From a virus, in IMG/VR virus record IMGVR_UViG_3300032116_001056, positions 1-27,965 of that record: a stretch of 27,965 nt of DNA; one strand, 5' to 3'. The notes below the pieces were generated by a model. The model made no database searches. It worked only from the letters and a program-made list of their open reading frames with translations, and was not told where the DNA came from. The translations under genes and the position numbers were made by a program. Every line of letters begins with the position of its first letter. Position 1 is the stretch's first letter. Below are positions 1,911-27,965 of the stretch, piece by piece.

Positions 1911-3059
1911 TTAGAACGTGTGACGGATACCAGCAGTGATGCCCACGTTGGTTGACTTGGTTGTTGCTACCAGGTCATTTGAGGCTTTGGCATGATCGAT
2001 GATACCATAGAGATTGGTACGCTTGCTGAGGTTGTACTCATTGAACAGTACCGTGGTCTTGAGATCACCTTTGGAACCCAACCCGTTTTTGTACTCGCCG
2101 TCATAGTAAGCCAATGTAGTGGCGAACTTGGAAGATAGTTCATAGCGCACACCCACGCTGGCGATCTTGGCTTCGGTAGAAGGGCCGGCTGTGGTAGCCA
2201 GACCCAAGATCGGCGTGGTAGCAGTGGCCGTGGTGGTCAAGTGTGAAGCCACGTATCCAGCATCGCTATCAACTGTGTGATAACCAGCGGTCAGCGTGGC
2301 AGCACCAAACTTGACATTGCCACCGTAGGTGGCGCTGGTAGCTTTTTTACCTGTGGCATCTTTGGCTACAAACTGCGCGGCACCCAACACAGCCGGACCT
2401 GCGTCAACTGTAGCACCAAAGGTAGTGGCTGTGCTGGCCGACTCACTACCGGCCACACCACCTGGGCTGTAACCTGCGATCACGCCTACTGGACCAAATT
2501 TGTTAACATATTTCAACATGCCGTCGGCACGGCTGTTTTTGAGACCGTTGGTGTTGCCATACGCATAGATCGACTGATTGATGCGAGCCGAACTCACACC
2601 ATAGGTCGCATTGGATACGACCACTGGAGCTGCAACGCCGTCCATGGCCGCACGCAAAGGATCTGTGATACCACGTGCCGCGATGTCAAGAGTGGCACCG
2701 GTGTTGCGGCCCAACTGCAATTCACCAGCGGTTTTGCTTCCCAGAGCTACATAGGCGAAACGATCAAACAAGATCGAACCCGTGCTACCGTTTTGGCTTG
2801 ATGCACCAGTGGCTGTGTTGATTCCGCCTTCTAACACAAATCGAGTTGATAGTCCATTGCCCAGATCCTCAGTGCCGCGGAAGCCCAAACGGCTGGTAGA
2901 CTGGACACCGCTGTACATATCAGTGCGGTTGCCACCGGCAGCATTGGCTGACGAATCCTGTCGTACTGCATTGTCAAACACACCATAGATGCTAATTGAT
3001 TGTGCGTTAACGGTTGAGACCATCGCGGCCAAGGCCGCAGCTATTGCTAATTTTTTCAT
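1911..3059 (-). CDS. Outer-membrane porin (Gram-negative porin family)
   Basis: A 382-residue protein. Residues 1-19 are a classical signal peptide (MKKLAIAAALAAMVSTVNA) with a cleavage-type V-N-A, followed by QSISIYGVFDNAV, the typical first strand of a betaproteobacterial general porin. Further porin signs are SRLGFRGTEDLGNGLSTRF near residue 75, alternating beta strands throughout, and the C-terminal GITAGIRHTF ending in Phe, the BAM recognition signature. Length is normal for the family (about 350-390). The start is set by the signal peptide and an AAAAGGAAAA ribosome site; a frame running back to 3113 would add an implausible leader. Function: a trimeric outer-membrane channel for small hydrophilic solutes. 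In a phage it may replace or mask a receptor porin, as known for the Lc porin of lambdoid phage PA-2, or alter nutrient uptake (inference). It has its own terminator, and phage genes lie on both sides. Confidence 0.93.
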   Translation of the reverse strand: MKKLAIAAALAAMVSTVNAQSISIYGVFDNAVRQDSSANAAGGNRTDMYSGVQSTSRLGFRGTEDLGNGLSTRFVLEGGINTATGASSQNGSTGSILFDRFAYVALGSKTAGELQLGRNTGATLDIAARGITDPLRAAMDGVAAPVVVSNATYGVSSARINQSIYAYGNTNGLKNSRADGMLKYVNKFGPVGVIAGYSPGGVAGSESASTATTFGATVDAGPAVLGAAQFVAKDATGKKATSATYGGNVKFGAATLTAGYHTVDSDAGYVASHLTTTATATTPILGLATTAGPSTEAKIASVGVRYELSSKFATTLAYYDGEYKNGLGSKGDLKTTVLFNEYNLSKRTNLYGIIDHAKASNDLVATTKSTNVGITAGIRHTF

Positions 3060-3067
3060 TGATTTTC

Positions 3068-3099
3068 CTTTTCGAAAAGAATGTGGCATGAAACGCCAC
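3068..3099 (-). promoter_or_regulatory. Porin leader with two small hairpins at the ribosome site
   Basis: The porin leader contains a 12-base perfect palindrome, CTTTTCGAAAAG (3068-3079), whose 3' half overlaps the AAGGA ribosome site, and just upstream a 5-bp stem GTGGC/GCCAC (3083-3099) with a 7-base loop. In RNA the first could partly hide the ribosome site. Further up, TATAGATA (3134-3141) differs by one base from the T4 late consensus and overlaps the stop of the preceding gene. These are sequence resemblances only. Confidence 0.35.
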
Positions 3100-3136
3100 G
3101 AATTACTTAGCATGTGCAGATGCCATAGAAAAATAT

Positions 3137-12401: not shown

Positions 12402-13089
12402 GTCGTTTCCACCATTCTTGCTCCCAATGATCAAATTCATCAGGACGGAGCATGAATTCTTGATATTCCGGAGGCTTGACGATGTTGAACTGCGCATCCA
12501 CTTCGGGTTTGACACACATCAAGATCACACCTTTGCGTATTTTTGTTCCATGCACTTCGTTATGCGCCAGGGCATAGGCCACCAGCTGTAGTTTGTAATC
12601 GTCGATCCACTCTTCGCGTTTGGGTTTGTTGGTCTGCTTGTAGTCCAAGATGGATTCTTCACCCAGGTGTATGCCACAGCCATCTGTGGTTCCAGCATAC
12701 AGGCCAGGAAAATACAAAGGCACTTCCACACCCCAGAATTCTTCAACATTTTTAAGTCCTTGATCGATCACGGTCATGGCCATGGCATGGCTGGCCCAGG
12801 CATAGGGATTGGTACCAGCTGGCTTTATCTCGCCGGTCTTGACATAGTGCTCCAGGTAGGTGTGCATCCTGGTGCCGCGATTGGCTGCTTCTGTGGTAAT
12901 GGCCTGGGCACGCTCGGTGCCCACACGTTTTTTCCACTCGTTCAAGGCTCTACGGCTTTCTTCGGGCTTGGTACGATCTAAGATCGTTGTAACACTGGGC
13001 AATCTTTGGCCATCAGGTGTGGCATAGAGTCGGCGACCATCTTCGGTTGCGCGATGCAACGGCTGGTAATCAAATCGGTGATTGATCAA
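12376..13089 (-). CDS. PD-(D/E)XK (RecB-type) nuclease
   Basis: A 237-residue single-domain nuclease of the PD-(D/E)XK superfamily. An early RGTRMHTYLEHYV helix (71-83) is followed by Glu122 in GVEVPLY, Asp136 in YAGTTDGCG, the Asp149-Tyr-Lys151 motif in SILDYKQTNK, and the Gln168/Tyr172 motif in YKLQLVAYALAHN, the order typical of RecB/Cas4-like exonucleases. It lacks the four-cysteine iron-sulfur cluster of Cas4 and AddB. Likely role: DNA end processing in phage recombination or host DNA breakdown. The start (ATG at 13089) overlaps the iscA stop by ATGA. The opening motif RLPSVTTIL with an N-terminal KPEES is normal for this phage family. Confidence 0.87.
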   Translation of the reverse strand: MINHRFDYQPLHRATEDGRRLYATPDGQRLPSVTTILDRTKPEESRRALNEWKKRVGTERAQAITTEAANRGTRMHTYLEHYVKTGEIKPAGTNPYAWASHAMAMTVIDQGLKNVEEFWGVEVPLYFPGLYAGTTDGCGIHLGEESILDYKQTNKPKREEWIDDYKLQLVAYALAHNEVHGTKIRKGVILMCVKPEVDAQFNIVKPPEYQEFMLRPDEFDHWEQEWWKRLELYYLSS

Positions 13090-13415
13090 ATTCTAAAACT
13101 TTCTCCGCAACCACAACGGTCGCGTTCATTGGGGTTGATGAAATCAAATCCTTCGTTGAGTCCTTTCTTGACCCAGGCCATGGTCATGCCTTCGAGGTAA
13201 GGGCGATGTTTAGGATCTATGTACACACGTACACCGTTGACGTCATAGTGTGCCATACAGTGTTCCCTACCTTGCTCGGTATCTACATATTCCAAGGTGT
13301 AAGCCAATCCCGAACACCCTGTGGTGCGCACACCAATCTTTATGCCTATACCGCGACCACGACGTGCGATGTTGTCTTTGACCCGGCAGGCTGCTTCATC
13401 AGTCAGTGACAGCAT
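13086..13415 (-). CDS. iscA: A-type iron-sulfur carrier (IscA/ErpA/SufA family)
   Basis: A 109-residue A-type carrier. The three cluster-binding cysteines are present: Cys34 in VRTTGCSGLAYTLEY, and Cys101 and Cys103 in the terminal CGCGESF. Length and layout match E. coli IscA (107 residues), including GLNEGFDFINPN before the Cys pair. Function: accepts an Fe-S cluster, usually from IscU, and delivers it to target enzymes. It overlaps the end of iscU by 17 bases and the nuclease start by ATGA, so the pair is coupled. No degraded positions are seen, so it looks functional. SufA or ErpA cannot be excluded by sequence alone, but the iscU neighbour favours the Isc type. Confidence 0.95.
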   Translation of the reverse strand: MLSLTDEAACRVKDNIARRGRGIGIKIGVRTTGCSGLAYTLEYVDTEQGREHCMAHYDVNGVRVYIDPKHRPYLEGMTMAWVKKGLNEGFDFINPNERDRCGCGESFRI

Positions 13416-13791
13416 GTTTTTTACGATAATCTTCTATGGCGGCTTTAATAGCATCTTCGGCCAAGATCGAACAGTGTATCTTGACCGGTGGAAGTGCTAA
13501 CTCTTGGGCGATTTGAGTGTTTCGGATTGTTGCGGCTTGGTCGAGGGTTTTTCCTTTGACCCATTCGGTGACAAGGCTTGAGCTTGCGATCGCCGAGCCG
13601 CAGCCATACGTTTTAAAGCGAGCGTCTGTAATAATACCTGTATCATCATCTACCTTTATTTGCAATTTCATCACATCACCGCAGGCAGGAGCACCGACCA
13701 TGCCGGTGCCCACTTGCGTGTCTGCCTTGTCAAATGATCCTACGTTGCGGGGATGCTCGTAGTGATCTAATACTTTTTCACTATAAGCCAT
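13399..13791 (-). CDS. iscU: Iron-sulfur cluster scaffold IscU
   Basis: A 130-residue IscU, extremely close to the proteobacterial protein (MAYSEKVLDHYEHPRNVGSF; E. coli IscU begins almost identically). Cluster residues Cys37 (APACGDVM), Asp39, Cys64 (YGCGSAIASSS), His106 and Cys107 (KIHCSILAED) are intact, and the LPPVK motif (100-104) recognised by the HscA chaperone is kept, so it should work with the host IscS/HscA/HscB machinery, none of which is encoded here. A GGAGGT ribosome site precedes the ATG. It sits 24 bases after the oxygenase gene. It is an auxiliary metabolic gene acquired from bacteria (inference from similarity). Confidence 0.97.
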   Translation of the reverse strand: MAYSEKVLDHYEHPRNVGSFDKADTQVGTGMVGAPACGDVMKLQIKVDDDTGIITDARFKTYGCGSAIASSSLVTEWVKGKTLDQAATIRNTQIAQELALPPVKIHCSILAEDAIKAAIEDYRKKHAVTD

Positions 13792-13815: not shown

Positions 13816-14412
13816 TTATATTAGATTGCCACTGACTGATATCCTGATGCCATCCGTTGTGGTAAAAGGATTTACCTGATGTACCAGTTTGCCAGGAAAC
13901 ATGATCATCTTGCCACGCCAGTCTTGATCTACTGGCAAGGTATAGGTACAGACCTTGCCCAAGATCGTGGTGTATTTGAATTCGAAACAACTGTGCCTCT
14001 GTCCGCGAGCATCTGGATACACCGCCAATTCTTCTTTGAGATCGTAGGGTATCTGCACCCAGATCACGAAACTGAGATCACCATCATGATCATGAGATGG
14101 ATTGTATTCATGCCGCTTTTGGAAGTTGGCCCAAACGCTGTCTAACTCAAAGGGTTTTGGCCGTGTCACGGTGCTGGCCGAAGTATATTGAGCAGCCACT
14201 TGCTGAATGAATTCACGGAACTCGGGTGATGGATCAAAACTGTATTGATCTTGAATATGCCCCACGAGATGATCGTTCCAGGGTTTGTATTGATCAGGGT
14301 TGGCTTGGATGTCTGCGCACACCTTGTCAAGATAGGACAGAGCCACCGGAGGGATGTCGAACATTATGAAGCCAAGATTGGGCAGTTGGTGATGTTTTAT
14401 TTCGATCTGCAT
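13816..14412 (-). CDS. 2-oxoglutarate/Fe(II) oxygenase
   Basis: A 198-residue oxygenase of the type common in T4-like cyanophages. The double-stranded beta-helix core has HDHDGDLSFVIWVQIP (His107/His109 region as the first iron ligands), a central FEFKYTTILG strand, and the distal GKMIMFPGKLVHQV (His178) with GIRISVSGN (Arg190 for 2-oxoglutarate). An N-terminal extension of about 90 helical residues precedes the core. Substrate unknown; peptide hydroxylation is a common guess for the family. The ATG at 14412 lies exactly where transcription from the promoter at 14419-14447 should begin, so the mRNA is probably leaderless. It is the first gene of the oxygenase-iscU-iscA-nuclease-oxygenase unit. 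Confidence 0.85.
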   Translation of the reverse strand: MQIEIKHHQLPNLGFIMFDIPPVALSYLDKVCADIQANPDQYKPWNDHLVGHIQDQYSFDPSPEFREFIQQVAAQYTSASTVTRPKPFELDSVWANFQKRHEYNPSHDHDGDLSFVIWVQIPYDLKEELAVYPDARGQRHSCFEFKYTTILGKVCTYTLPVDQDWRGKMIMFPGKLVHQVNPFTTTDGIRISVSGNLI

Positions 14413-16789: not shown

Positions 16790-17413
16790 TCAGACCTCTC
16801 TGACTTTGCAGTTCAGTGCAATGACCAAGCGATCTTGTGTGCCACGATAAGTCAGTGCTGAATGTGGTACCCAGCTGGGGAATATCACCATCATGCCGGG
16901 TTCTGCGATGAAATCAGTGCTGGTGCTGTTCTGCATCCAGGCCGTGCCGGGATCTACATACATGCAATGATTAGGGTTGTAGAATCTATTGACCCCATTT
17001 TTATCCCCAGCCTTCATGTCGCCAATGTCAAGATAATAGATAGCAGACCACGAACTGTCTGGATGGGCATGTAAGTCATGGTAACCACCGTCTCGGGTGA
17101 TATGGCACCAGGATTCGTGTATGTCAACATCCAAATTCAAACCCGTGGGCCAAAATGCTTGATTGGCATGCGTGATGGCTTGAGAAAAACACTGCCGAAC
17201 CCAGGTAGCAAAGGCCTGAACCGCGGGCGAGTCATCCTGCACAAAATCAAATCCGCTTTCGTAGAGACCGCGTTTGGCCTGCGTTGCTATGCCGCTGACG
17301 TGTTTTTTGGCCTCTAATTCATAACAGAGTTTGGTGAGATCTTGGACCCAATGGTCATGATCAGACCATTGGAAATCGTAGAACATCACGGGCCACAATG
17401 CTATGGGTTGCAT
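16790..17413 (-). CDS. 2-oxoglutarate/Fe(II) oxygenase (TIGR02466-like)
   Basis: A 207-residue oxygenase resembling the putative 2OG-Fe(II) oxygenase family TIGR02466. The opening ALWPVMFYDFQW corresponds to that family's 'F-P-T-P-V' strand. The iron site is in GGYHDLHAHPDSSWSAIYYL (His115/His117 with the conserved SWSAIYYL strand), the distal ligand is His184 in FPSWVPHSALTY, and Arg195 (DRLVIALN) should bind 2-oxoglutarate. Substrate unknown. The start is the ATG at 17413; a TTG at 17431 is the only longer choice and falls in the terminator tail. The promoter-like CGTAAATA at 17419-17426 leaves no room for a leader. Confidence 0.85.
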   Translation of the reverse strand: MQPIALWPVMFYDFQWSDHDHWVQDLTKLCYELEAKKHVSGIATQAKRGLYESGFDFVQDDSPAVQAFATWVRQCFSQAITHANQAFWPTGLNLDVDIHESWCHITRDGGYHDLHAHPDSSWSAIYYLDIGDMKAGDKNGVNRFYNPNHCMYVDPGTAWMQNSTSTDFIAEPGMMVIFPSWVPHSALTYRGTQDRLVIALNCKVREV

Positions 17414-17418
17414 GGTGA

Positions 17419-17426
17419 TATTTACG
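17419..17426 (-). promoter_or_regulatory. Late-promoter-like element abutting the oxygenase start
   Basis: CGTAAATA followed by TCAC on the minus strand; the same 12 bases occur on the plus strand at 20111-20122. It lies between the terminator at 17436-17460 and the ATG at 17413. Since the terminator should cut off upstream transcription, a promoter is needed here, and this is the only candidate. Transcription would start at the ATG itself. Confidence 0.45.
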
Positions 17427-17435
17427 GCCAAACAA

Positions 17436-20147: not shown

Positions 20148-21848
20148 ATGGCGACAGAATTACAGCAGATCGAGGAATTGTTAGCAGAATTCCGCAGGTC
20201 CTGTCCGGACACACTGGACTACCAAGAAAGATTAGCAGAAGAATTTGGCATAATCATCAACCAGAGATTCACGGATTATTTCCTCAAGATACGCAGGGTC
20301 CTAGATCTCAATAAAGACATACCACACATGACACGCGGATCCGCAGGATCCAGCCTGGTGTGCTATCTCATGGGCATAACAGATGTGGATCCCATAGAAT
20401 GGCGCATACCCCTGGCCCGATTCCTCAATCCCTTCCGAGACGATCTGCCTGATGTGGACATCGATGTGCCACACCACCAACAAGAGTTGGCCATGCAAAG
20501 GATCTTTGATGCCTGGCCCGGCAAGACTGCTCGCATCAGCAACTATGTGATGTACAAAGAAAAATCGGCCCGGCGCGAAGCAGCCAAGCGCCTGGGCGCT
20601 CGAGGACGCTTGCCCAAGGAAATAGACTATGCCAAACTGGGCGTGGATGTGGAAGAAGCACGCCGCATAGAGAAAAAACTCATGGGCAAGAAACGTTGCC
20701 TGAGCAAGCACTGCGGTGGAGTCATAGTGTTTGATCGCAAGTTACCGCAGAGCCTGTTCCGCGATGACAATCTCATCTTGCTGGACAAAAACGAAGTAGA
20801 GGATCTCGAGCACCTCAAAGTAGACATCCTGGCCAATCGTGGGCTCAGCCAACTCATGGAGATTGATGCCGCCCGCCGGATACACGAATATCCCAAGGAA
20901 GATGATCTCACAGCGGATCTGCTACAGCGCGGGGATGTCTTGGGAGTGACACAGGGAGAATCCCCGGCCATGCGCCGACTGTTCCGAGCCATCAAGCCCA
21001 CGTCTGTAGAAGACTGTGTGTTTGCCACGGCCTTGGTACGACCCGTGGCCGTGGAAGGTCGTAAAAAGGCTTCGTTCTTCCATGACTGGACCAAAAAAAC
21101 TGTGCAAGAGTCGGCCATAGTATGCGAAGACGATGCCATAGAAAAGATCATGAAACTGATCTCTGTAAATGCCTACGAAGCCGACATGTATCGCCGGGCC
21201 TTTGCCAAGCGCAACGAAGAAAAGGTCATGGAGTTCATGGCTCGGCTGGGTGACCACCCTGATCGACACGCCATCTATCAAGAGATGCAGAGTTTATCAG
21301 GTTTTGGCCTGTGCCGCGCACATGCTGTGAACCTTGGCCGCTTGATCTGGGCCCTGGCCTGGCAGAAAGCACACAACCCCAGAGAGTTCTGGCGTGCCGC
21401 ACTCAAGCATTGCCAAGGAAGTTATGCTCGTTGGGTCTATCGCAACGAAGCCAAGCGAGCAGGCTGGGACCTGCGCGATCTTGGATTTGACAACTGGATC
21501 ACTGAAGATCCTGTGGAGTCATTTGTGGAGCATGGCTGCTGGAATTCTCCGGGCTTCTTGCCGCGAATGGGAGTAAGGAATCTCTACTTGGATAAGTTTG
21601 AGTTTGCTGGTATCGTGGCCAACAGCCGGGTATTCCGCAGAGATCGACAAAAATATATTCACTTCATCACCCTGGGAGTAGGCGAAGGAGAGTATGTGGA
21701 CCTTATCGTGGATCGGCCCATTAAGTATGATTCAGGCTCTGTGATAGTAGGACAAGGCGAACGTCAAAACAGAGACGGTAGCCAGTTTTTGATGTGTCAA
21801 AAATCCAATGTCAAAAGCATAAAAATTGACGAGTATCTAAATCAATGA
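20148..21848 (+). CDS. Reduced C-family (DnaE-like) DNA polymerase
   Basis: A 566-residue protein related to bacterial DNA polymerase III alpha. Residues 62-110 hold RGSAGSSLVCYLMGITDVDP and LPDVDIDVPHH, the palm with catalytic Asp104 and Asp106. HLKVDILANRGL gives the third, Asp226. SKHCGGVIV (186-194), GVTQGESPAMRRLFRAIKP (266-284) and GFGLCRAHAVNL (385-396) match fingers and helix-hairpin regions, and residues 490-560 look like an OB-fold. Compared with DnaE (about 1,160 residues), the N-terminal PHP domain (about 270 residues) and the tau/clamp-binding end are missing. So it could polymerise but has no proofreading or PHP domain here. It heads the only plus-strand operon and overlaps the SGNH gene by ATGA. 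T4-like phages normally use a B-family enzyme, so a repair or accessory role is possible. Confidence 0.85.
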   Translation: MATELQQIEELLAEFRRSCPDTLDYQERLAEEFGIIINQRFTDYFLKIRRVLDLNKDIPHMTRGSAGSSLVCYLMGITDVDPIEWRIPLARFLNPFRDDLPDVDIDVPHHQQELAMQRIFDAWPGKTARISNYVMYKEKSARREAAKRLGARGRLPKEIDYAKLGVDVEEARRIEKKLMGKKRCLSKHCGGVIVFDRKLPQSLFRDDNLILLDKNEVEDLEHLKVDILANRGLSQLMEIDAARRIHEYPKEDDLTADLLQRGDVLGVTQGESPAMRRLFRAIKPTSVEDCVFATALVRPVAVEGRKKASFFHDWTKKTVQESAIVCEDDAIEKIMKLISVNAYEADMYRRAFAKRNEEKVMEFMARLGDHPDRHAIYQEMQSLSGFGLCRAHAVNLGRLIWALAWQKAHNPREFWRAALKHCQGSYARWVYRNEAKRAGWDLRDLGFDNWITEDPVESFVEHGCWNSPGFLPRMGVRNLYLDKFEFAGIVANSRVFRRDRQKYIHFITLGVGEGEYVDLIVDRPIKYDSGSVIVGQGERQNRDGSQFLMCQKSNVKSIKIDEYLNQ

Positions 21849-22681
21849 GACTATTCACATTTGGTTGCAGCCACACCTCTTATCACTATCCTACCTGGGC
21901 AGATATCATAGGCAGGAGTTTCACTGAATTTTACAATTGGGGTCGTCCCGGAGCCGGCAATAATTATATTCTCAACGCGATAAATCGATGCCATCTGACT
22001 CATAAATTCCGGCCCGATGATACCGTGATCATACTTTGGTCGGGTTTGGCTAGAATTGATTACTATCAGATCAATGAATGGTCTCACTTTGTGAATCAAT
22101 ATTTTGATCTATCTCGCAAAGATATACCGTTGTCATGTCCTGTCGGTTATCAATGGTTGTCATTTGCGTGGATGGCATCTGTACAGTACATGCTAGATTA
22201 CCTCAAGATCAACTATAAAATGTTGCATTGGCAGGAATTTGATGGCGATACTGAGCCATACAAACTCTATGGTCCAATCTTAGACCGTATCAAATATGCA
22301 CCCATGACGCCCAATCAAAAACCATATCGTTTACATCCACAGAGTTTAAAATCTGCGCGGCAACTTTACGATAGGATGGCAGGTGCAAGTTGGCCCCCGT
22401 TGGATCAAATTCTAGATGGACAGTATCGCAACATGCCTCTTGATGCATTTGTGAAACAAGAACTATATGACTTTTGTGACATGATTAAGCAAGACAGAAC
22501 GATATCTTCAAATCTTTGGAACACAGTTGATATGCATCCAAGTCCATTGCAACACCTTGCCTGGGTCAATGAACATTTACCAGAATATCCTGTGTCTCCA
22601 ATCACAATTGATTGGATCACGGACATAGATTCAAAACTATCGGCCGGTAAACACTATGACTTTGACTTCAAACACTTTTGA
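21845..22681 (+). CDS. SGNH/GDSL-hydrolase-like protein (DUF6071-type)
   Basis: A 278-residue protein. Block I is FGCSHTSYHYPTWADII, with Ser9 in the nucleophile place of GDS. Block II is NWGRPGAGNNYIL (Gly/Asn), and DMHPSP near residue 230 supplies the Asp-x-His pair of block V. This pattern is that of phage SGNH-type proteins (DUF6071-like, as I recall the family), which may act on cell-surface or sugar esters; no substrate is known. Start overlaps the polymerase stop by ATGA. It ends inside the last codons of the helicase gene on the other strand (14-base overlap), with no terminator between. Codons are richer in A/T than the polymerase gene before it, suggesting separate acquisition. Confidence 0.78.
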   Translation: MRLFTFGCSHTSYHYPTWADIIGRSFTEFYNWGRPGAGNNYILNAINRCHLTHKFRPDDTVIILWSGLARIDYYQINEWSHFVNQYFDLSRKDIPLSCPVGYQWLSFAWMASVQYMLDYLKINYKMLHWQEFDGDTEPYKLYGPILDRIKYAPMTPNQKPYRLHPQSLKSARQLYDRMAGASWPPLDQILDGQYRNMPLDAFVKQELYDFCDMIKQDRTISSNLWNTVDMHPSPLQHLAWVNEHLPEYPVSPITIDWITDIDSKLSAGKHYDFDFKHF

Positions 22682-24074
22682 TTTGATTCAATAGGCTTTT
22701 AAGTTTTGATGACTGTACTTCTGCCGTGATTTTTCCTGGCTCGTCAGCAACAGTGGCATTGGGTTCGTCGTCTGTCAAGGTACTTTTGGCCTTGATCGAC
22801 TCATAGATCGATGGCGCACGTTTTTTGAACTCTTGATAACCTTCATCCTGCGCAAGATCTCGGATGCGCAGGCTTTCGATATCAAATTCCAGCTCCACTT
22901 TCTGTCCTACACCCGAGGAACTACGAGTCTTCATCAACTGTAATTGATAGCGACCACGCTCACGCATGGCTCTCGATGTAAAGATACCAAATACGTTGTC
23001 CGCAGTATTGATCTTAGAAATACCACCTGAGATATGGCTATGGTCAAACTCAATTTCTTCCACTGCCGCACGATTCAACTGGCTTGCTGTGACAAATAAG
23101 ATGTTGAGTTCTTTGGCCAGGTTGCGCAGTTCTTCCGACACATATTTGTCTTTGACAAACAGGTCATTGGGTGATACCTTGGCACTCACTGGCATGAGTA
23201 GATCCAAATAATCCACACACAGGAAATCTGCCTTCAATCCGGTCTGTATCTGCAGTTCTTTGAGATACGCCCGGATGTCGTTCACTGTGCTCTGTGCAGG
23301 CATGTATTTGATACGCATCTTGCCCGACTTCTTGCCCATCATCTTGATCTTCATCTCTACGGTGTCAAGGTCTCGGAAGATCTCTTTTTGTGCTGTGTTG
23401 GTGAGCATGCCATCGATACGCATGGCACACAGACCTTCGGAAAGTTCCAAAGTGATGTACACTCCAGAAAGTCCGGCCTCTACCCAATTCACTGCCAAGT
23501 TCTGCATGAACAGGCTCTTGCCCGAGCCCGATCCACCCGCAAAGATCTGCAGTTCGCCGCGATTGAATCCGCCATACAACAGCTTGTCCAAGGCAGGCCA
23601 ACCTGTGCTGTTCTGGCCGTTGTTGTTTTTCAAGGCCATCAATCTCGCACGCGGATCATCAAAGTAATCTGTGCCCATGTCCTTGGTCAAGGATATCTGC
23701 ACTGCATCCTTGATCAGTTTTTCCACAGGATCAAAGTTGCCTTTTTCCAGCAAGTCCGCTGATTTCAAGATCGCACGTTCCAGTTCTTGCCTGCGTGTGA
23801 ATCCTTCAAACTCTTCCAAGAACCAGTCAAAGTGTCCTTCAGTGAGATCAGGGATGTGTTCCAGACGAGTGGATGTGGTAGCCGACACCTGCGCACGGTC
23901 CGGCATGGTCTTGTGCTTGTCGCAGTGTTCTTTTATGAACTCGGCTGCTGGACGCAGGCTGCGATCAAAGTTTTCTGGATTGTAGATGTTCTGCACACGG
24001 ATGTAACTCTGTGCATCCTGCAACATCATCTCCAGGAACAGTCGTTGGACATCAATTCCGTAGTCTTTTAACAA
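22668..24074 (-). CDS. Replicative DNA helicase (T4 gp41/DnaB-like)
   Basis: A 468-residue RecA-fold helicase. The N-terminal 130 residues are a helical domain. The motor has Walker A GGSGSGKS (180-187), the GVYITLELS strand, Walker B FLCVDYLDLL (Asp288), and the TASQLNR sensor motif near residue 330, then ISGGISKINTADN and LMKTRSSSGVG with the likely arginine finger. Length matches T4 gp41 (475). Role: hexameric 5'-3' unwinding at the phage fork, working with the primase encoded directly upstream (23-base overlap). The C-terminal 40 residues (DDEPNATVADEPG to SLLNQIKSV) are a disordered linker and short helix that may bind a partner. The 3' end overlaps the convergent SGNH gene. Confidence 0.94.
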   Translation of the reverse strand: MLKDYGIDVQRLFLEMMLQDAQSYIRVQNIYNPENFDRSLRPAAEFIKEHCDKHKTMPDRAQVSATTSTRLEHIPDLTEGHFDWFLEEFEGFTRRQELERAILKSADLLEKGNFDPVEKLIKDAVQISLTKDMGTDYFDDPRARLMALKNNNGQNSTGWPALDKLLYGGFNRGELQIFAGGSGSGKSLFMQNLAVNWVEAGLSGVYITLELSEGLCAMRIDGMLTNTAQKEIFRDLDTVEMKIKMMGKKSGKMRIKYMPAQSTVNDIRAYLKELQIQTGLKADFLCVDYLDLLMPVSAKVSPNDLFVKDKYVSEELRNLAKELNILFVTASQLNRAAVEEIEFDHSHISGGISKINTADNVFGIFTSRAMRERGRYQLQLMKTRSSSGVGQKVELEFDIESLRIRDLAQDEGYQEFKKRAPSIYESIKAKSTLTDDEPNATVADEPGKITAEVQSSKLKSLLNQIKSV

Positions 24075-25041
24075 GTTGCTTCTTCCTTAGTTCTATCTTG
24101 ATTTTACTGGTTTCTCTGGCTTGGAATATATGTATCAAGGTCACCAATTGGCCAAAGCACTTTACTGCATCATTGACATCTTTGATGTTCGATGGCCACT
24201 CAGGCATGCTCACTGCCCAGCCCAGTTCTACGGCACGATCAACCAGTTTCATGCCGGCTTCGTCCTGATCTGGAACCACAGTGACTTCGCGATCCAAGCT
24301 GCGTATCAATCTGGCCTGTGCATCGTTGATTTCAGCATGCAACACAGCCAACCCTGCGATGCTGAGTGCGTCAAACACGCCCTCGACAACGATCGCATGT
24401 TTCCAATTGGGGCCTTGTAGATCTGTACCAAACACATAGCCTGGTTGCATGTCATGGATATATCGTGGATTATGATCATCAAAGAATCTCTGGGTATGTC
24501 CTACTATGCGCCCGTCATAGGTAAATGGTATGATCACACCCTGCCGACGGCTGAACTTGTCATCGGGCTGACCATGTATCATGCCCGTGGGGTAGTTCTC
24601 CGGCACACAGCGATCTCTGAGGTATTGCCAATGCACTGGCATGTGCTGATCTATCAGTGCAAAGGTATCGGGCAGTTCTCGGTCTTCAAATTCAATGCCT
24701 TGTACCGTATTGGCAGTCCTCTGCCGATCGTCCAGGATACCTTGCACACTGCGATGTCGCAGGCTTTCAAGATTGACACGCTCGATCTCTTCCTTGGGTA
24801 CATTCAGCCATTGCAAAAATCTGCGGGCCTTGAAAGACAAGTTGCGGCCCTGGATAAAACTGGCCGTGAATCCACAGTTGAAACAGTGGAAACTCCAGCC
24901 CTGATCATTGACTTTGATCCCACCACGTTGCCGGCGGTCCGAAGATTCGCCGTTGTGAACACAACAAGGTGCATTGAATGATATCCATCCCGACGCGGTA
25001 CTCTTGCGTTTGGTTGGAAGATAAGGGAGTATGTCAATCAC
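24052..25041 (-). CDS. DNA primase (T4 gp61/DnaG-like)
   Basis: A 329-residue primase. A zinc-binding module is formed by Cys26/Cys27 and His29 with Cys53 and Cys56 (NAPCCVHNG...FHCFNCGF). The TOPRIM core has Glu220 in AIVVEGVFDALS and Asp258-x-Asp260 in VVPDQDEAG, and GVIIPFTYDGRIVGHTQRFF (168-187) is the usual preceding strand pair. Length matches T4 gp61 (342). It makes RNA primers on the lagging strand with the helicase whose gene follows by overlap. It begins with GTG at 25041, sharing GTGA with the stop of the SGNH gene upstream. A basic C-terminus (KIKIELRKKQLVKRLRN) may contact DNA or the helicase. Confidence 0.93.
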   Translation of the reverse strand: MIDILPYLPTKRKSTASGWISFNAPCCVHNGESSDRRQRGGIKVNDQGWSFHCFNCGFTASFIQGRNLSFKARRFLQWLNVPKEEIERVNLESLRHRSVQGILDDRQRTANTVQGIEFEDRELPDTFALIDQHMPVHWQYLRDRCVPENYPTGMIHGQPDDKFSRRQGVIIPFTYDGRIVGHTQRFFDDHNPRYIHDMQPGYVFGTDLQGPNWKHAIVVEGVFDALSIAGLAVLHAEINDAQARLIRSLDREVTVVPDQDEAGMKLVDRAVELGWAVSMPEWPSNIKDVNDAVKCFGQLVTLIHIFQARETSKIKIELRKKQLVKRLRN

Positions 25042-25766
25042 TCAATCATTGTAACACGATCTATTTCAGGAATCAACCTTGATGCTATCCATTCATGACC
25101 CTGGATGTTTGGATGGCCCATGGGTGCCAACAGATGTTGTCGATGCGGTAGATATTTGAACTGGGTTTGCAGACATTGGTCTGGCCATAACACAGTGGAT
25201 TTATTGATCACGGTCACGGGTTGCAGAGTATTAAATTGTAACAATCCGCGATGATTTTCTCTTTGTCCATGAAAAAACAACACAGCCTGCCTGTAATTTA
25301 AATCATGAGATTCTGGGCAATCGGTCAGTGCCATGTGTTTTTTAACCATGTCCTCCCATGCTTGCTGAATGGTGGCCTTGCCACTATGTACCCATGCGCT
25401 GTGAACGAAACGGTTCCATGGGGGATCGTTGGCGTAGCACACATGATCTACCTCATAAAAACTGTGGCGGTTGGCATCAGTAAGAGCGACCAAAACCAAA
25501 CACTGATCCAAAGGCACAGATTCGTGTTCGACCCACCACAGATAGGTCCAGATAGTGCTTTGTAAACTACCTCCGGGCAAACCAAAATTCTCTGTGGGCA
25601 CGCCATAATGCCGACCCAACTGCCCCAGAAAACATTGAGATTCTCTGTACACAGTGTTCTCTACTAACACAGGATGTGCGTGGGGGTGATCGATCAAAGC
25701 AGGGTCCAATAACTCGTCGCCCCACATGAAAGAATCTCCAAATCCTACGATTTTATTAAACTTCAT
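25038..25766 (-). CDS. SGNH/GDSL hydrolase family protein
   Basis: A 242-residue protein with a canonical block I, VGFGDSFMWGDELL (Ser12 as nucleophile), a block II Gly in FGLPGGSLQST, and block V in MGHPNIQGHEWIA, where His and Asn/His suit the catalytic pair. This is the second such protein in the window, more canonical (GDS) than the plus-strand one (GCS). Possible esterase or deacetylase acting on host envelope sugars or virion glycans; nothing in the sequence fixes the substrate. Start overlaps the beta-rich gene upstream by ATGA and its stop overlaps primase by GTGA, so translation is coupled to replication genes. Confidence 0.8.
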   Translation of the reverse strand: MKFNKIVGFGDSFMWGDELLDPALIDHPHAHPVLVENTVYRESQCFLGQLGRHYGVPTENFGLPGGSLQSTIWTYLWWVEHESVPLDQCLVLVALTDANRHSFYEVDHVCYANDPPWNRFVHSAWVHSGKATIQQAWEDMVKKHMALTDCPESHDLNYRQAVLFFHGQRENHRGLLQFNTLQPVTVINKSTVLWPDQCLQTQFKYLPHRQHLLAPMGHPNIQGHEWIASRLIPEIDRVTMIE

Positions 25767-26570: not shown

Positions 26571-26578
26571 TATTTATG
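26571..26578 (-). promoter_or_regulatory. Late promoter, minus strand, facing the previous one
   Basis: CATAAATA followed by TC on the minus strand. It would start transcription near 26565 toward the TTG at 26506. It overlaps the start codon of the plus-strand gene at 26576, and the two leader RNAs would be complementary over about 20-35 bases. Confidence 0.5.
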
Positions 26579-26953
26579 GGTGAAAACTTGTTCGTGACAC
26601 TAAGCCAGAAGTACCCTTTCATCACCTTGTGCATCCATGCGGGCAACGAATATGTGGGCATCATACAAAATCGCGATGCTGATATCACCAGTCTATATGA
26701 TTTTGGTGACATCCATGATCCTGTGCTAAAACGCCGTTTCTTGGACCTTGGCAGCACCTGGTGGTGGGAAAGCAATCACAGCATTCCTATCAACATATTC
26801 CTGCGTAATGAATGGGACGTTTTCCGCGATTATATACGCACATTCAGCAACAAAGATCTCGAAATCATACATGGCCCTGTGTGCAGTCTCAGCGAGATCA
26901 GCCGGCGCAAAAGTAAACGGAAATCAATCACTTTGGTTCGCAGGGTAGATTAG
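26576..26953 (+). CDS. Conserved T4-like phage protein (STWWWESN motif)
   Basis: A 125-residue protein on the plus strand between two minus-strand operons. It has strands YPFITLCIHAGNEYVGIIQN at the start, then LGSTWWWESNHSIPINIFLR and a FRDYIRTFSNKDLEIIHGPV helix and strand, and a basic end SRRKSKRKSITLVRRVD. I recognise the 'W-W-W-E-S-N-x-x-I-P-I-N-I-F' run from conserved uncharacterised proteins of marine T4-like phages. Its 3' end overlaps the small polymerase-like gene on the other strand by 30 bases. The ATG at 26576 lacks a close ribosome site; a TTG or GTG a few codons on is possible. Confidence 0.75.
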   Translation: MGENLFVTLSQKYPFITLCIHAGNEYVGIIQNRDADITSLYDFGDIHDPVLKRRFLDLGSTWWWESNHSIPINIFLRNEWDVFRDYIRTFSNKDLEIIHGPVCSLSEISRRKSKRKSITLVRRVD

Positions 26954-27490
26954 ATTCATGTGCAAGGCCACCAGTCGGGCATAGCTCACTGCATGGCTTT
27001 TCTTGAATGTATATCCTCGGCTGTCGTCACCGTCCCATACTGACTCAAAAACACGATCCCATGAGTGCCCTTGCAGGTGTGCCTTGCCAGGACGTATTAT
27101 CGATATAAAAGCAGCCATGCGAGGTATGCTGTCTGGGCGCATGGCCGACAGCAGATCAGTATAGTTGCCCACGTGTATCAAGGACTTGGCCCAATCAGAA
27201 TCTTGCCACAGTTTGGCCCAATCTGGCTCCTGGGCCAGCATGCGGTCATAGTGCGCTTGATCTTGGATCAATTGATACACCCCAAGATTCAACAGATCGA
27301 TCTTGAAATATCCGCGTTGCTCTGCGGTTTCATAGTCTATGGCTGCACAATCCAGCACAGGATCTCTGGGTATGTTTTGTATGTACACTCCGGAATTGTG
27401 TCGGCGATCGCCTTGCCTGGCTGGCACATGCTGTATCAATGACAGCACACGGCTTCGGTCTGGCAAGTCTATGTCGATATCTGCGCTCAT
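26924..27490 (-). CDS. Miniature DnaE-like polymerase-core protein
   Basis: A 188-residue protein that keeps the core signatures of C-family polymerases in the right order: SADIDIDLPDR (Asp6 and Asp8 aligning with the DxD of the 566-residue protein), HNSGVYI (31-37, the H-x-x-G-V segment), GYFKIDLLNLGVYQL (Asp65 as third acid), PDSIPRMAAFISIIRPG (119-135) and YTFKKSHAVSYARL (160-173). It lacks PHP, most of the palm/thumb, and the C-terminal domains. Related short proteins exist in T4-like cyanophages with no known function. The start is the ATG at 27490, overlapping the upstream stop as TGATG; a longer frame to 27565 would be mostly overlap. Activity is unknown: it may be a DNA-binding regulator or a minimal enzyme. 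Confidence 0.8.
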   Translation of the reverse strand: MSADIDIDLPDRSRVLSLIQHVPARQGDRRHNSGVYIQNIPRDPVLDCAAIDYETAEQRGYFKIDLLNLGVYQLIQDQAHYDRMLAQEPDWAKLWQDSDWAKSLIHVGNYTDLLSAMRPDSIPRMAAFISIIRPGKAHLQGHSWDRVFESVWDGDDSRGYTFKKSHAVSYARLVALHMNLIYPANQSD

Positions 27491-27965
27491 CACCATCCTG
27501 CCTTGGTCAATATTTCTCTGGCATACTCGGCGTCGGCCCTGTAGTCGCGGAACTTCCGCTGCCAAAAATCACTGTCTATCATGGGCCAGATCATGGCGAT
27601 CTGCTCTTGAGATAGATTCTCCAGCAGAGTCATGCCAGATCCACAGTTGTACAACACCCATGGCGATATCTTACCCGTGGTGATGGCGTAGCACACCCGA
27701 TTGGTGTTACCATAGCGCAGATAATCTCGATCTGGATTGCCAGTTTCTTCAGCCCAGGTCATGGCTTCTTCTATGGCACGAGCCAGGGCGTCAGCAGTAG
27801 ATTCAGATCTAACATAGTCAGTGATGTATTCTCCATAGATAGAGTCTCTGCACCAGTGATCAATTTTTTTGTTGTGCTTGAGCAGCCAGTCAATGAACCG
27901 GGCGACATTTATGGCCTTGATGTCTACACAGTATCGTCCAAATTTTACGAATGCACGATAATAGG
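27490..27965 (-). CDS. Partial conserved phage protein upstream of mini-DnaE
   Basis: An open frame from the right edge to the TGA at 27490, 157 visible residues; the N-terminus lies beyond the window, and the ATG at 27762 is internal. The visible part reads YYRAFVKFGRYCVDIKAINV, then FIDWLLKHNKKIDHWCRDSI and YGEYITDYVRSESTADALAR, and later ISPWVLYNCGSGMTLLENLS. The pattern 'F-G-x-Y-C-x-x-x-K-x-I-N ... W-L-x-K-x-x-K-x-I-D-H-W-x-x-D-S-x-Y-G-E' is familiar from conserved proteins of T4-like marine phages, where it is uncharacterised. It is coupled by TGATG to the small DnaE-like gene, so the two products may work together. Confidence 0.78.
   Translation of the reverse strand, partial: YYRAFVKFGRYCVDIKAINVARFIDWLLKHNKKIDHWCRDSIYGEYITDYVRSESTADALARAIEEAMTWAEETGNPDRDYLRYGNTNRVCYAITTGKISPWVLYNCGSGMTLLENLSQEQIAMIWPMIDSDFWQRKFRDYRADAEYAREILTKAGW

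Follow-up and report, generated by a model that had tools for sequence, protein, structure and literature searches.

Within the window, i.e. the whole 27,965-nt stretch of viral DNA analysed here, a 188-aa ORF occupies positions 26924-27490 of the minus strand (coordinates with the stop codon), in a replication cluster with the following features.

20148-21848, plus strand: one-piece, PHP-less, compact DnaE-like polymerase of 566 aa, with palm, thumb region and fingers

22668-24074, minus strand: DnaB-like replicative helicase (phrog_19), a conserved syntenic neighbour

24052-25041, minus strand: primase (Toprim; phrog_47), a conserved syntenic neighbour

26576-26953, plus strand: small protein of phrog_11637, a conserved neighbour, convergent with the C-half gene

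26924-27490, minus strand: 188-aa protein of phrog_11778 (the C-half), the likely metal- and template-binding half of a split minimal C-family polymerase

27490-27965, minus strand: protein of phrog_11058, which runs off the window and overlaps the start of the C-half gene as TGATG

In this TGATG the ATG of the C-half gene overlaps the stop codon of the upstream ORF, and an in-frame ATG two codons upstream offers an alternative start. Lengths of 184-213 aa were found in the aligned set of the family, and its median dN/dS is 0.08 (620 pairs); the ORF is real, conserved and under purifying selection. The protein matches phrog_11778, which PHROG annotates as ‘DNA polymerase’, over residues 3-182 (E 3.3e-52). 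A search of Pfam with the C-half gave no match, nor did a single-sequence search of solved structures, and a profile search of solved structures returned mainly weak matches to Pol III alpha. Full-length homologues with 29-41% identity are present in 63 GenBank phage records, nearly all of them from large phages, including RaK2, 121Q, GAP32, CBB, PA5oct, Atu_ph07, Phosso, XacN1, SCTP-2 and Vibrio 2.275, and the IMG/VR matches listed include at least 570 relatives. The family also reaches a phage of 141 kb, Alishewanella phage Slicko01 (OQ508956.1).

Primase and DnaB genes adjoin the C-half gene in almost every locus of sufficient length. Typically the C-half gene is followed by the convergent phrog_11637 gene, next in most cases by a virion structural gene, and then by primase and DnaB; in XacN1 and CM1 similarity did not reveal the phrog_11637, primase and DnaB neighbours. 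The 3′ end of the C-half gene overlaps the convergent phrog_11637 gene by 30 nt (26924-26953), and shorter convergent overlaps (4-20 nt) occur in Atu_ph07, PA5oct, RaK2, SCTP-2, XaC1 and Phosso, an arrangement that perhaps reflects antisense coupling. Two other genes inside the replication cluster, at 21845-22681 (plus strand) and 25038-25766 (minus strand), look by eye like GDSL/SGNH hydrolases (GDSFMW, FGCSHT), and the latter is present or absent between the primase and structural genes among relatives. Elsewhere in the window, all on the minus strand, are a Gram-negative porin gene with a signal-like N-terminus (1911-3113; PF13609, E 1e-32; no match in PHROG), which may be an auxiliary gene of host origin; two adjacent Fe-S assembly genes, one IscU/NifU_N-like and one IscA-like (13086-13791); and two 2OG-Fe(II) oxygenase genes of phrog_81 (13816-14412 and 16790-17431).

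The C-half carries a series of C-family polymerase motifs, given here with their equivalents in E. coli DnaE numbering.

27467-27481, minus strand: D4-I-D6-I-D8, equivalent to D401/D403/D405; Asp invariant (170/170)

27389-27400, minus strand: H31xxG34 motif, equivalent to H511/G514; invariant

27296-27304, minus strand: K63-I-D65, equivalent to K553/D555; K and D invariant (170/170)

27083-27097, minus strand: IRPxK fingers motif, with R133 equivalent to R639; R133 and K136 invariant where present

26990-27004, minus strand: KKSHA motif, with H166 equivalent to the steric gate H760; invariant where present

The order D4-I-D6-I-D8, H31-N-S-G34-V, K63-I-D65 and K163-K-S-H166-A agrees with the series DxD, HxxGV, KxD and KKSHA that had been read from the sequence alone, and hhalign placed it collinearly on E. 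coli DnaE. D4, D6, D8, K63 and D65 are invariant across 170 C-half sequences, and R133, K136, H166 and Y170 are so in each of the 169 sequences long enough to include them; this conservation, together with dN/dS, rules out a chance motif match. D401, D403 and D555 are metal ligands, absolutely conserved throughout the C-family (PMC3919608), and all three metal-binding aspartates are present in the C-half as Asp4, Asp6 and Asp65. The sequence-only reading had named Asp6, Asp8 and Asp65 as the catalytic aspartates and proposed their conservation in homologues as a check. All of them, as well as Asp4, are indeed invariant, and Asp65 is correctly placed as D555, but the other catalytic pair is Asp4/Asp6, and Asp8 corresponds to D405. 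Site 405 distinguishes DnaE, which has Asp there, from PolC, which has Asn (PMC3919608), hence the invariant Asp8 places the C-half on the DnaE side. The steric gate, which selects dNTPs (PMC8485763), is kept as His166. A C-terminal QxNLL helix was considered as a clamp-binding motif and rejected, because inspection by eye places it on the fingers helix that follows KSHA in DnaE. The C-half is a relative of the C-family polymerases.

As a catalytic core it is incomplete. The 188 aa contain neither the first strand of the palm nor the dNTP-binding motif GRGS (E. coli 361-364), and since the protein starts at D401, past both of these elements, no complete palm is possible. Thus, the earlier description of a stripped-down DnaE catalytic core was apt in that the protein is a palm/fingers relative with its metal-binding acids, and went too far in implying a full core. 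The GRGS segment that completes the palm is carried by a second protein of ∼170 aa, phrog_11127 (the N-half), in which GRGS is invariant in 76/76 sequences; phrog_7513 gave a weak match at the same place and was set aside as partner family in favour of phrog_11127. The N-half ends in EFL(R/K), with its Leu at E. coli 392, and the C-half starts at ∼399. On E. coli DnaE, hhalign placed the N-half at 347-392 and the C-half at 399-418, 528-641 and 753-767, all collinear, so the halves abut without overlap and are complementary. No fused or adjacent N-half and C-half genes were found among the fetched loci, and within the 28-kb window the N-half profile matches nothing but the GS region in the one-piece DnaE.

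Several parts of a bacterial enzyme are missing from both halves. The interval between the equivalents of D405 and H511 is only ∼22-27 residues long in the C-half, and the thumb of E. coli DnaE lies in this interval. No PHP, (HhH)2 or thumb segment was aligned in either the N-half or the C-half; PHP and (HhH)2 are nearly universal among bacterial C-family enzymes (PMC3919608). Moreover, R390, R709 and R710 are dNTP-contacting residues (PMC4374717); the R390 position is an invariant Glu in the N-half, and the fingers segment 642-752, with R709/R710, is deleted in the C-half. Hence, binding of the triphosphate is either done differently or lost.

Comparison of a predicted structure with the DnaE palm had also been proposed. 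The AlphaFold2 model of the C-half (72-row alignment) has a pLDDT of 92 and a pTM of 0.74, and in a Foldseek search of the PDB its matches at ranks 1-14 were all Pol III alpha or another C-family polymerase, the best with E 1.1e-3, probability 1.00 and a TM-score of 0.52 over the query; probability was 1.00 for the best seven, and the first match past rank 14 had E ∼1. These matches cover the fold in part, with TM ∼0.5 over the query and an rmsd of 6-9 Å. The N-half was modelled separately from the C-half (pLDDT 85, 63 rows), and its ranks 1-12 were all Pol III alpha. Both halves are fragments of a large chain, which explains the modest E-values, and it is the consistency of the Pol III alpha matches to these models, rather than the E-values, that argues for the fold. 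The C-half is predicted to have a palm/fingers fold in which the palm is partial because the rest of it is on the partner.

The two halves occur together. In a profile search both were found in all 10 isolate genomes tested, namely Atu_ph07, Phosso, PA5oct, RaK2, SCTP-2, Vibrio 2.275 (a partial genome), CM1, XaC1, XacN1 and Slicko01. With tblastn from RaK2 against GenBank, the N-half was found in 60 records and the C-half in 63, the extra C-half records (by accession and genus) being a 109-kb Klebsiella fragment and two Alishewanella phages. The apparent absence of the N-half from the Alishewanella phages in BLAST was not upheld, as the profile search finds it in Slicko01, which is not a jumbo phage and which has the halves ∼11 kb apart together with a family-B polymerase. 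Both halves are also present in two IMG/VR contigs, of 337 and 212 kb, and in 13 of 17 further large contigs; the other four have one half alone (two N, two C), and all four may be incomplete. Because the large contigs were chosen for having one half (one of them for a one-piece DnaE), only the presence of the other half tests the pairing. A family-B polymerase is present in 10/10 isolates and in most large contigs. In two relatives of the window phage, contigs G001 (337 kb) and G018 (328 kb), the N-half and a family-B polymerase are present; the window, a fragment, contains no family-B polymerase gene, and the N-half gene should sit elsewhere in the genome of the window phage.

The window has, in addition, the one-piece DnaE, which lies near DnaB on the opposite strand, aligns to E. 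coli 319-787 (hhalign) and keeps the equivalents of R390, R709, R710 and H760 as well as all metal ligands. The C-half and the one-piece DnaE were found in the same order in 34 loci including the window (some contigs counted twice), and G001 and G018 have the split pair, the one-piece DnaE and the family-B polymerase. The window lineage thus probably has three polymerase systems. In LR756508.1 (484 kb) neither half is present, the only matches being located within a one-piece DnaE, and there is a family-B polymerase; as this phage has the one-piece form and lacks the pair, it suggests that the one-piece DnaE may stand in for the split pair.

We consider it likely that the C-half forms the C-terminal part of a minimal DnaE-type polymerase that consists of two proteins, lacks a thumb and carries out short synthesis at the primase-helicase complex. 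The metal-binding palm strands, with Asp4, Asp6, Asp65 and Lys63, would come from the C-half, as would a fingers domain of reduced size that holds the steric-gate His166; the N-half would contribute the GRGS motif for dNTP binding and the first strand of the palm. We infer that the two assemble physically into one palm and add deoxynucleotides; the invariant Lys of IRPxK might, as a speculation, compensate for the lost arginines. Because thumb, PHP, clamp-binding and OB parts are missing, synthesis should be non-processive, and the job of the pair may be to extend primers or fill gaps before or beside the family-B replicase. Since primase and helicase genes are so regularly found beside the C-half gene, our first choice of role is short primer extension, on the model of B. 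subtilis DnaE. At the level of sequence, the invariant metal ligands, Lys63, GRGS and steric gate speak for activity, while the loss of R390, R709 and R710, the absence of an N-half gene from the 28-kb window, the contigs with a single half (all possibly fragments), the partial fold matches and the lack of a fusion count against the split-polymerase reading. On balance, we lean towards a working polymerase with a two-protein palm (∼170 + 190 residues), thumb-less and without the usual dNTP arginines, possibly the smallest C-family enzyme, operating beside a family-B polymerase and, here, a one-piece C-family polymerase.

The main rival for the role is an active split polymerase that differs from this only in serving repair, translesion or recombination-coupled synthesis. 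UvsX or RecA-like genes lie in the same region of RaK2, XaC1 and PA5oct, a UvsW-type helicase gene in that of RaK2 and SCTP-2, and Iyer et al. 2021 (PMC7824862) name repair among the possibilities; the most constant neighbours, however, are primase and DnaB, which fit work at the fork, and we regard the repair role as possible but doubtful. It is unlikely that the pair is instead a catalytically dead scaffold whose retained palm shape serves to bind DNA, dNTP or a different polymerase, and which has the family-B replicase or host Pol III as the target of its regulation. Such a scaffold would be in keeping with the disappearance of R390, R709/R710 and the thumb, and with the fact that each phage carrying the pair has a family-B polymerase or is a fragment, but it would not need all the catalytic residues to be invariant, and the three Asp, Lys63, GRGS and the steric-gate His are all invariant over very divergent phages.

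The sequence-only reading had entertained a C-half that acts alone, as a minimal nucleotidyltransferase of 188 residues or a DNA-end binder. The model folds confidently by itself and the metal ligands are kept; yet the GS motif and the first palm strand are both on phrog_11127, present alongside the C-half in all isolate genomes tested, and we find a stand-alone function very improbable. Least credible, to the point of being negligible, is that the C-half is the decaying remnant of a DnaE gene such as the one-piece DnaE in the same cluster: its length is kept, it has hundreds of homologues, it is found in phages without the one-piece gene, and the conservation data and dN/dS refute a pseudogene.

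If the split polymerase is active, the pair would show how small a part of Pol III alpha suffices for templated synthesis, and also that a palm can be split between a GS half and an acid half. A large and common phage group would then have a mixed replisome of family B and family C, a testable model for the use of a second, primer-extending polymerase.

The window protein joins a kind already described by Iyer et al. 2021 (PMC7824862), who predicted a minimal Pol III alpha split in two proteins, one N-terminal that binds NTP and one C-terminal that binds Mg and template, in group 2.2 jumbo phages that also have a family-B polymerase; the earlier statement that relatives have no known function is superseded by this prediction and by the PHROG annotation. 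From the wording of that paper, phrog_11127 and phrog_11778 are taken to be its two proteins. A literature search found no other paper on a split minimal Pol III and no bench test of the 2021 prediction. As far as checked, what is new is where exactly the split falls, the residue-by-residue audit, how strictly the halves pair, the finding of the family in a phage of 141 kb and its coexistence with a one-piece DnaE. The family and the company of DnaB and primase are the same in the window and in the system of the 2021 paper, and the two-protein split and the family-B polymerase would be shared as well; the window lineage adds the one-piece PHP-less DnaE. The one-piece enzymes of LR756508.1 and the window are, like the pair, PHP-less phage C-family polymerases, and unlike it they are single chains with a thumb region and all dNTP-contact arginines; they stand beside family B in LR756508.1, G001 and G018.

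With E. coli DnaE the pair shares the equivalents of D401/D403/D555, D405, K553, H511/G514, R639 and H760, and GRGS in the partner. In contrast to E. coli DnaE, the C-half has one sixth of the length and no PHP, thumb, R709/R710 segment, HhH2, OB or CTD, the palm is split over two proteins, and R390 is replaced by Glu in the partner. B. subtilis DnaE extends RNA primers and then hands over to PolC (PMC5627055). It would be comparable to the phage pair as a C-family enzyme beside a main replicase and linked with primase and helicase (PMC5627055), whereas it is a full-length single chain and its main replicase is PolC rather than the presumed family B of the phage.
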